Below are positions 45,000 to 47,039 of a DNA stretch of 64,000 nt, piece after piece (the stretch's first letter is position 1; each line of letters starts with the position of its first letter). Location of the stretch: positions 248,001 to 312,000 of the forward strand of contig SSEL01000023.1 of assembly GCA_008012315.1 (NCBI GenBank). The letters are read 5' to 3'. The stretch is from Rhodospirillaceae bacterium. GTDB lineage: Bacteria; Pseudomonadota; Alphaproteobacteria; Dongiales; Dongiaceae. A program made the translations under genes and the position numbers. Under the pieces are notes generated by a model. The model saw only the letters and a list, made by a program, of their open reading frames with translations, was not told the origin of the DNA and searched no databases.

Positions 45000-46160
45000 A
45001 TGAACTCGCTCGGTTTCGATAAGGCCCCCGGGGATACACGGGTCGTCGTCGCCATGTCCGGCGGCGTTGACAGCTCGGTGACGGCCGCGCTGCTGGCGCA
45101 GGAAGGTTATGACGTCGTCGGCGTCACCCTGCAGCTCTACGATCATGGCCTGACCGTGGGCAAGAAGGGGGCATGCTGTGCGGGCCAGGACATCTATGAC
45201 GCCCGCCAGGTGGCGGACAAGCTCGGCATTCCCCATTACGTGCTGGATTACGAGAACAAGTTCTCCGATGCGGTGATGCAGGAATTCGCCGATTCCTATC
45301 TGAACGGCGAGACGCCGATCCCTTGCGTGCGCTGCAATCAGCGGGTCAAGTTCCGTGACCTGCTCGACCAGGCCCGCGATCTTGGCGCGGAAGCGATGGC
45401 GACCGGCCATTACGTGCGCCGCGTCTCCGGTGCATTTGGCGCCGAGATGCATCGCGGTACCGATCCCAGCCGCGATCAAAGCTATTTCCTTTTCGCAACC
45501 ACCCAGCCGCAGCTCGATTTCCTGCGCTTCCCCCTGGGCGATGTGCCGAAGACCGAAACCCGTGCGATAGCGGCAAAGCTTGGCCTCGCCGTCGCCGACA
45601 AGCCGGACAGCCAGGACATCTGCTTCGTCCCCGATGGCGGCTATGCCAAGGTGGTCGAGAAGCTGCGGCCCGGAGCAATCGAGCCCGGTGAGATCGTGCA
45701 TCTCGATGGCCGCGTGCTTGGGCATCATGATGGCGTCATCAATTTCACCGTCGGCCAGCGGCGCGGCATTGGCGTGCATGATGTCGGCAGCAATAACAAG
45801 CCGCTTTATGTCGTGAAGGTTGAGCCGCAGACGCGCCGTGTCTATGTCGGCCCCAAGGAGGCCCTGGCGCGGCATTGCGTGACCTTGCGCGATGTGAATT
45901 GGCTCGGCCGTTCCGATGAGCCGACCCGTGACGTGCCGGTCACCGTGAAGCTGCGCTCGATGAGCCAGCCGGCGCCGGCTACTGTGACGTTGCAGGCGGT
46001 GTCATTGCAGGAGGCCGCGTCGGCCGGCAGCAATGCTATCGTCACGCTGGAGGCGCCGCAATATGGCATTGCGCCGGGCCAGGCTTGCGTTTTCTATCAG
46101 GGCGAAAGATTGCTGGGCGGTGGCTGGATCTGCCGCGACGATCAGGCTGTCATTCAATAA
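45000..46160 (+). CDS. mnmA: tRNA-specific 2-thiouridylase
   Basis: Thiolates U34 of the tRNAs for Lys, Glu and Gln with sulfur from IscS. In 386 residues it has the PP-loop S20-GGVDSS, catalytic C112 (RCNQRVKF) and C208 ([12 protein letters not shown]), and the C-terminal beta-barrels ([22 protein letters not shown]). Encoding the acceptor at the end of the isc operon ties it to the sulfur source. The extra N-terminal dozen residues are usual in alphaproteobacteria. Confidence 0.96.
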
Positions 46161-46177
46161 CCGAAGCGGGGGGCGTG

Positions 46178-46480
46178 ATGGAGCTGGCGCAACTGACCGA
46201 GGAAATGCGGCGCCGCGCCGCTCAGAACGTGCAACTGGGCTATAAAGTGAAGTTCGTTCTCGATGATGGGATCATCTTCTGGGACGGGACCGTCCATCCC
46301 CCGGCGATCGGTAACGAGGATGCCGGCGAGGCCAATACGACCATCGCCATGTCGGCGGAAAATCTGGAAAAGCTGATGGCCGGCGGCCTCGACCCCACCC
46401 TGGCCTATATGACCGGCAAGCTCAAGGTCGAGGGCAGCATGGGGGTGGCGCTGAAGCTCACCTCCATGTTTGGCGATTAA
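46178..46480 (+). CDS. SCP2 sterol-carrier-like domain protein
   Basis: A 100-residue single-domain protein: GYKVKFVLDDGIIFWDG, ANTTIAMSAENLEKLMAGGLDPTLAYMTGKLKVEG and a MGVALKLTSMF end match the SCP2 fold, which binds lipids or acyl chains in a hydrophobic tunnel. Function in bacteria is open. ATG 46178 is used; a GTG directly before it would add one residue. It is the last gene of the plus-strand run before the tRNA. Confidence 0.85.
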   Translation: MELAQLTEEMRRRAAQNVQLGYKVKFVLDDGIIFWDGTVHPPAIGNEDAGEANTTIAMSAENLEKLMAGGLDPTLAYMTGKLKVEGSMGVALKLTSMFGD

Positions 46481-46594: not shown

Positions 46595-46669
46595 GGCAGC
46601 GTAGCTCAGTGGTAGAGCAGGGGAATCATAATCCCTTGGTCGGGGGTTCAAATCCCTCCGCTGCTACCA
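46595..46669 (+). tRNA. tRNA-Met (CAU), elongator type
   Basis: A 75-base cloverleaf with encoded CCA. Acceptor GGCAGCG pairs with CGCTGCT including the G1-U72 wobble seen in elongator Met tRNAs. D arm is GCTC-AGTGGTA-GAGC. The anticodon stem GGGGA/TCCCT has loop ATCATAA, anticodon CAT. The T arm contains GTTCAAATC. The lack of initiator features (three G-C pairs in the anticodon stem, mismatched 1-72) argues against fMet; a lysidine-type Ile tRNA cannot be fully excluded. It marks the left edge of the accessory block. Confidence 0.93.
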
Positions 46670-46839
46670 TCTTTATCACCCTTTTCAAGAATAACACTGG
46701 AACGGATGCCGCTCGGCTCCAGGATTCCTGGGATTTGTCCGACCAGTTCGATCTCGCATTCGCCCTGCTTTTTCGTGGGGTGAACAACGATGCGGTCGAT
46801 GAACCGCCGCACCGCCTCTTCCCACCTCCTGTTGCCGCT
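46648..46839 (-). pseudogene. C-terminal remnant of a recombinase, ending in the tRNA
   Basis: On the minus strand an open stretch of about 63 codons reads RRWEEAVRRFIDRIVVHPT, then GECEIELVGQIPGIL and IRSSVILEKG. It resembles the C-terminal end of large serine recombinases (the IDRIVV...EIELVG pattern). It has no start, is cut by a stop at 46840-46842, and its own TGA (46648-46650) lies in the T arm of the tRNA, so the coding frame was completed by the attachment site. The remaining 200 bases up to 47039 hold no gene I can support and may be more of the decayed element. Confidence 0.5.
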
Positions 46840-47039
46840 TCAGCTCCGGCCAGTGGCGGACGCCCCCGTCACGCTGCAGATGCGTGGCCGAGCCTGACGG
46901 CACGGAGTAACCCCTTGGTATTATGTTCGGGGGCACCCGCCAGTGTCATGGTTCAGATCAAGAAAATGCGAGCAGCACCGGACTTTGCCAGTCACGAGGT
47001 GCCGAAACGCGTCGGATGCCAGACATTGGGAGTGGAACA

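Follow-up and report, generated by a model that had tools for sequence, protein, structure and literature searches.

A frameshifted serine recombinase remnant in a tRNA(CAU) gene and a group of related integrases whose genes end inside tRNA genes

Analysis of a 64,000-nt stretch of a Rhodospirillaceae bacterium contig (the window) revealed an intact tRNA(CAU) gene that is met from the opposite strand by the end of a recombinase-like reading frame (Table 1). On its chromosomal side the tRNA gene is preceded by an SCP2 gene and by an open frame that resembles trmU. The 3′ half of the tRNA occurs once in the genome at two or fewer mismatches, besides a tRNA-Thr copy that the degenerate search pattern also covered. 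Among 13 loci of the window's own family in related genomes (L272-L284), SCP2 adjoined the tRNA gene in nine and trmU only did so in one more, and the sequences 3′ of the tRNA differed from locus to locus. In two relatives, detached copies of the 3′ half of this tRNA, beginning at about the anticodon, lie 2 and 28 kb further on (G013:C23:90021-118201) and 17 kb further on (G011:C2:679558-696287); they are probably the traces of tyrosine-integrase elements at the window's tRNA. This place is an insertion hotspot.

The minus-strand frame at 46648-46839 encodes 63 residues, including FIDRIVVHPT and CEIELVGQIPGIL, before a TGA (TCA on the plus strand, 46648-46650) that lies in the T loop of the tRNA (46595-46669); translation thus bore out the original prediction of a frame with these motifs and a stop in the T arm. 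To identify it, we built a profile HMM from the C-terminal 140 residues of the large serine recombinases (LSRs, or serine integrases) collected in this analysis and ran it on the 1487 stop-to-stop segments of the window. The segment at 46651-46839 (minus strand) ranked first with an E-value of 2.8e-10, and the second rank fell to another frame at the same place (46629-46868, minus strand, E 0.018). In the organism's own genome, the 63 residues matched, at E 1.7e-5 and 40% identity, an open frame of 587 aa on contig C85. This nearest full-length relative (P0002) carries Resolvase, Recombinase and zinc-ribbon domains (PF00239, PF07508 and PF13408), none of which is present in the window fragment, which corresponds to the C-terminal end alone. 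Searched against 96 relatives, the 63 residues had matches in four genomes; one of these, in locus L003, lay on the strand opposite a long ORF and was dismissed as a chance hit.

Curated libraries alone were insufficient to place the fragment. In the Pfam scan the sole match was to DUF4368, which at 18 bits stayed below the threshold of 25, and no recombinase emerged from NCBIfam or PHROGs; tblastn against plasmids gave no match, and the four tblastn matches in phages (E 3 to 9) were at chance level. Such results would fit a chance open frame across the tRNA, particularly since the tRNA sequence dictates the final codons of both frames and any frame antisense to a tRNA could yield a GFEPPT-like tail. 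However, the significant HMM match spans residues 8-43 of the segment, which lie upstream of the tRNA, and collinear matches link the fragment to many LSR C-termini, so that a chance origin is very improbable. The complete lack of recombinase similarity that the original prediction named as grounds for abandoning its reading did not arise, and its tentative assignment to the serine recombinases was strengthened. We also considered that the fragment could derive from a tyrosine integrase, the class of enzyme that normally occupies tRNA sites, given that tyrosine integrases do occupy tRNA-Met in related genomes (five checked insertions with anticodon-type junctions and an adjoining PF00589 gene) and that the displaced halves in G013 and G011 follow the same anticodon-type pattern. 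This assignment is highly unlikely, however, as the fragment had no PF00589 (Phage_integrase) match in the Pfam scan but matched the LSR C-terminus profile, and its nearest full-length relative bears the three LSR domains. The window fragment is an LSR remnant, not a working member of the family; the copy is dead, with no remaining function apparent.

Table 1. Features at the tRNA(CAU) locus of the window.
Feature	Position	Strand	Evidence
trmU/mnmA-like ORF (45000-46160) and SCP2 gene (46178-46480), chromosomal side	45000..46480	+	Pfam SCP2; synteny in relatives
tRNA(CAU) gene, intact; elongator Met or Ile2; putative attB of the lost element	46595..46669	+	ARAGORN; Rfam RF00005, 69.7 bits; fold
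Probable ancestral stop, a TGA that overlaps the antisense anticodon (46627-46629)	46626..46628	-	sequence; same stop in full-length relatives
Neighbouring frame with tRNA-coded tail ending KRVIKMVAAEGFEPPTKGL and stop; probable ancestral gene end	46626..46787	-	P0002 match; identical tails in relatives
LSR C-terminal remnant, originally predicted frame; TGA end in T loop	46648..46839	-	translation; HMM E 2.8e-10; own-genome match E 1.7e-5
Putative P2 half of attachment site, LSR side	46659..46688	-	attP inverted repeats and attL/attR pairs at other loci; shares AAAAGGGTGA
Frame change in remnant	46686..46692 (46677-46719 by L011 alignment)	-	LSR similarity switches frame

From 46693 to 46818 the similarity to LSRs follows one frame and from 46638 to 46685 a different one, indicating a frame change within the remnant; beyond about 46818 (at most 46886) no LSR sequence was recognisable. 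The E-values of the frame-change search carry no composition correction, with unrelated places reaching 1.7e-4, and we therefore used this search for positions only. The neighbouring frame matches residues 518-533 of P0002 with 69% identity, overlaps the convergent tRNA gene by 44 nt and ends in MVAAEGFEPPTKGL on the TGA that overlaps the anticodon, as full-length LSRs do in four other genomes (L009, L010, L011 and L019 (Azospirillum)). These four genes lie at an identical tRNA 3′ half, end in VAAEGFEPPTKGL on the same TGA and share the last 11 residues of the neighbouring frame. Because the similarity changes frame and the full-length relatives stop at the anticodon TGA, the TGA in the T loop is unlikely to have been the original stop and was probably brought into frame by a shift in the dead copy. 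Thus, of the original prediction that a recombinase frame ends inside the tRNA, the overlap stood, while the stop that it had named is better explained by the frameshift. It had also proposed that related strains might hold the full-length gene at the same tRNA; such genes were found at the same kind of tRNA in the four other genomes, but no LSR lay beside the tRNA in any of the 13 relatives' loci of the window's own family. Taken together, these data make it very likely that the window retains the last 60-odd codons, now frameshifted, of an LSR gene from a lost prophage or island that once occupied tRNA(CAU).

To determine how widely LSR genes end in this manner, we combined two genome and two viral searches with the relatives and phage records, which yielded 235 loci; after removal of 49 duplicates and nine ORFs lacking a stop, 177 distinct complete LSR genes remained. 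These loci are the best matches to our queries, among the matches listed, and because they were picked by similarity the proportions below are not population frequencies. Fifty-seven of the 177 LSRs stop inside an intact tRNA gene, which in all 57 lies on the opposite strand, convergent with the LSR gene; the targets, among the matches listed, are tRNA-Met(cat) in 52 cases, Glu(ttc) and Thr(cgt) in two each and Ser(gct) in one, and in 50 of the 57 the stop lies at precisely 44 nt within tRNA-Met. A further 48 keep a tRNA-coded tail, 27 of them without an intact tRNA and 21 at a contig end. The remainder, again among the matches listed, comprise 34 with a tRNA 3′-end core followed by other sequence (attP/attR-like) and 38 without a tRNA-like core. 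As a control, only one of 855 other long ORFs in the survey loci stops in a tRNA. In a Pfam-selected sample of the phylum, 110 of 249 genomes had a match, and of the 29 LSR loci read, five stop inside an intact tRNA gene (Met three times, Glu(ctc) and Asn(gtt)). The named hosts of the group are mostly Alphaproteobacteria. The original expectation that serine recombinases would target tRNA genes less commonly than tyrosine integrases agrees with a 2011 actinobacterial survey, passages of which call such use "rare"; within this LSR group, a gene end inside a tRNA is common and not peculiar to one site.

In a FastTree phylogeny of 176 rows, from which the last 45 residues had been removed and in which several branches are long, target class changed 28 times compared with 63 in shuffles, a difference that near-copies in the tree enlarge by making the target label look more clustered. 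The tRNA users did not form one clade (18 changes). These results suggest that targets are inherited but often switched. In the organism's own genome, the full-length relative on contig C85 (P0002) ends inside tRNA-Thr(cgt). There (L002/L006, C85:10979-18368), the LSR gene is followed by genes for SSB, the DNA polymerase beta-clamp and ParB in what appears to be an intact element. The outer att arm at this site shares AAAAGGGTGA with the arm in the window, and the tRNA cores differ.

Comparison with relatives suggested where the crossover falls. In these, the LSR gene is convergent to the tRNA and its 3′ end contains the inverted repeat of attP, which in virion genomes lies inside the LSR gene with its left inner half formed by the tRNA 3′ end. 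Fifteen of 18 outer-arm positions match in Microcystis phage Mae-JY30 and nine of 18, a weaker repeat, in Rhizobium phage RR1-A; the LSR gene of a third virion genome, phage Mae-JY29, had no inverted repeat. Ten of the 34 attP/attR-like loci reach 12/18, compared with 0.3% in a matched shuffle null, and 21 of the 34 fall below 10/18 and show no clear repeat, a number that may include tandem insertions, in which the two arms belong to different elements. Four of 50 attL loci also reach 10/18. The best attL/attR pair flanks a 15.5-kb element of Gluconacetobacter diazotrophicus, whose arms match at 20 of 26 positions (elsewhere in 19.5 kb the highest score is 17); weaker pairs were found in L022 and L036 (14/20 each). 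A paper on phages of acetic acid bacteria (PMC8566455) deals with tyrosine integrases and has no bearing on the LSR question. In every case the centre of the repeat lies at the junction of the acceptor and T stems, which by analogy would place the crossover in the window at 46658|46659. Only one att arm is left in the window; the best candidate for its partner in the 64 kb scores 16/26, which is at noise level, as does the best candidate (17/26) for the second end of the tRNA-Thr element on C85. A displaced 32-nt tRNA half was absent from the Azospirillum and MAG sites, where this sequence is single copy, which is what crossing over at the acceptor/T junction should produce.

An alternative crossover point is the anticodon loop, where the stop codon would coincide with the crossover and the tail of the protein would never change. 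This possibility was raised by the 27 of 177 loci, among the matches listed, that keep the tRNA-coded tail without the tRNA 5′ half, the initiator-tRNA cases among them diverging right after TTATGA(G). In all five of the 27 that were examined, however, one end of the insert carries a PF00589 tyrosine integrase, which accounts for the junction (six ORFs from these junctions were submitted, the sixth, at the other end of one insert, being an alginate-export match). Moreover, the attP repeats of the phages and the Gluconacetobacter pair are centred on the acceptor/T junction. We therefore dropped the anticodon loop as the LSR crossover and regard it as unlikely. With LSRs crossing over at the acceptor/T junction and tyrosine integrases at the anticodon loop, the same tRNA appears to take two kinds of element at two points. 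Separately, five loci (L070, L077, L026, L081 and L087) contain two att-like cores about 66-96 bp apart within one LSR 3′ end, both in frame, which may mark either tandem att sites or places from which small insertions have been deleted.

We propose that, upon integration at the acceptor/T junction, the element half-site, consisting of the acceptor 3′ strand and the outer arm and coding throughout for the LSR C-terminus, would be joined to the T arm of the host, leaving the tRNA whole. In the integrated form the LSR frame would cross the crossover point and end in antisense tRNA sequence, usually on the anticodon-loop TGA, and in the free element the same frame would continue into the other half-site and end differently. 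Because the gene spans its own crossover, integration would swap its last codons for antisense tRNA, an exchange apparent at the level of DNA. In the relatives, as far as sequence can indicate, the att site thus lies within the integrase gene itself and the product would be changed on integration. In the AlphaFold model of the Azospirillum LSR (548 residues), the last ordered element is placed at residue 516, and pLDDT values are below 50 over residues 522-548, so that the part exchanged is expected to form a loose tail; a tail predicted to be disordered also implies that the enzyme should tolerate the swap.

Whether the swap would have a function is a separate question, and we consider it probable that the overlap between gene and tRNA is a neutral side effect, in which attP happens to lie against the gene, no stop is maintained, translation runs to whichever stop it meets and the exchange does nothing. 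The predicted disorder of the tail and the variable length and sequence of attP-form tails agree with this explanation, which passages of a paper on Dehalococcoides offer as one option for dsiB (PMC3146451). Against it stands the conservation of the acceptor-strand frame across a wide range of LSRs (the 50 of 57 noted above, among the matches listed), although this follows from homology and is not proof of function. Alternatively, integration could act as a switch on the integrase, by which the free-form tail, often ending in AA and resembling an ssrA-type degradation signal, is replaced by a tRNA-coded tail that alters stability or activity. Since the tRNA core would be both target and tail-coding sequence, a new choice of tRNA would then automatically rewrite the end of the protein. 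Among the matches listed, AA ends occur in 11 of 34 attP/attR-like tails, compared with none of the 105 tRNA tails and 38 of the 863 other ORFs, and tails end in A in 19 of 34, none of 105 and 141 of 863, respectively. By analogy with phage BPs, the loss of AA on integration suggests the removal of a degradation signal. AA ends were also found in 10 of the 38 LSRs without a tRNA core, among the matches listed, and in eight of the 29 LSRs of the unselected Pfam sample, most of them nowhere near a tRNA. AA may thus be an ordinary habit of LSRs that integration into a tRNA erases, which weakens the idea of a degradation signal, and the switch appears doubtful.

Comparison of our results with published systems showed several partial precedents. 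Passages of one earlier source call serine integrases in tRNA genes unknown. An inducible, functional phage of Paracoccus aminophilus JCM 7686, phiPam-6, has a serine recombinase and is integrated in tRNA-Met (PMC3925955, PMC6536676), and its 17-bp att sequence, CCCTCCTCCGCTACCAT, is, like the sites described here, the tRNA-Met 3′ end and spans the acceptor/T-stem junction; in contrast, the relevant passages mention neither a reading frame through att nor a changed C-terminus. According to passages of a later Paracoccus virome paper, phiPam-6 is the sole serine-recombinase prophage with a predicted site (PMC6536676), and in a Paracoccus survey no integration site was identified for most serine-recombinase prophages, nor for a cluster of 11 serine recombinases. 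In the ssrA islands of Dehalococcoides, the 3′ end of the gene for the CcrB-like LSR DsiB invariably overlaps attL, and its frame may extend into ssrA, which encodes tmRNA, so that its stop codon depends on the sequence beyond, and the authors speculated in 2011 on a function in the circular form (PMC3146451). This system differs in its tmRNA target, its restriction to one genus and its CcrA/CcrB-like two-recombinase module, and the passages concerned contain no inverted-repeat attP and no comparison of tails.

In the integration-dependent immunity of mycobacteriophage BPs, attP likewise lies within a reading frame and integration changes the C-terminus of the product, but the passages on it describe a repressor gene with a separate integrase and a longer viral form with an ssrA-like tag (PMC4557955), whereas here the gene is that of the integrase itself. 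Serine recombinases of mycobacterial AICEs at tRNA-Leu and of phage phiRSM1 at tRNA-Ser also use tRNA genes, but belong to other lineages and use other tRNAs, and overlap between gene and tRNA is not discussed in the passages concerned (PMC3218068). Thus, an LSR phage in tRNA-Met (phiPam-6) and an LSR gene reading into tmRNA (dsiB) were already known. In the open-access literature we found no description of the alphaproteobacterial LSR group, its acceptor/T-stem crossover, the tail swap or the breadth of the phenomenon, and our claim that the mapped crossover, tail swap and breadth are new extends to that literature.

Location in tRNA genes, a short shared core and overlap with the integrase gene may explain why many serine-integrase prophage sites stay unidentified. 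An LSR frame that ends in a GFEPPT-like tail inside a tRNA could serve as a signature for locating these elements and the points at which they cross over, and natural LSRs that target conserved tRNA genes might be used as integration tools. The possibility of an integrase switched by the act of integration raises a question that can be tested.

Several LSRs in our collection depart from the pattern described above. On own-genome contig C31, an LSR of a different branch (L293, 1-1478) has a frame that crosses an antisense tRNA-Ser(cga) from end to end and reaches its stop on the far side. Seven LSRs of free viruses (L236, L240, L245, L248, L252, L259 and L263) share a conserved end, G-R-W/Y-R-x-A-A, and an inverted repeat that precedes the stop by 65-77 nt, but lack a tRNA-like core. 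Finally, in L013 (about 9889) and L016 (about 12228), sequence resembling 16S rRNA lies about 4.3 kb past the LSR stop, suggesting that some elements sit at the ends of rRNA operons, facing their transcription.
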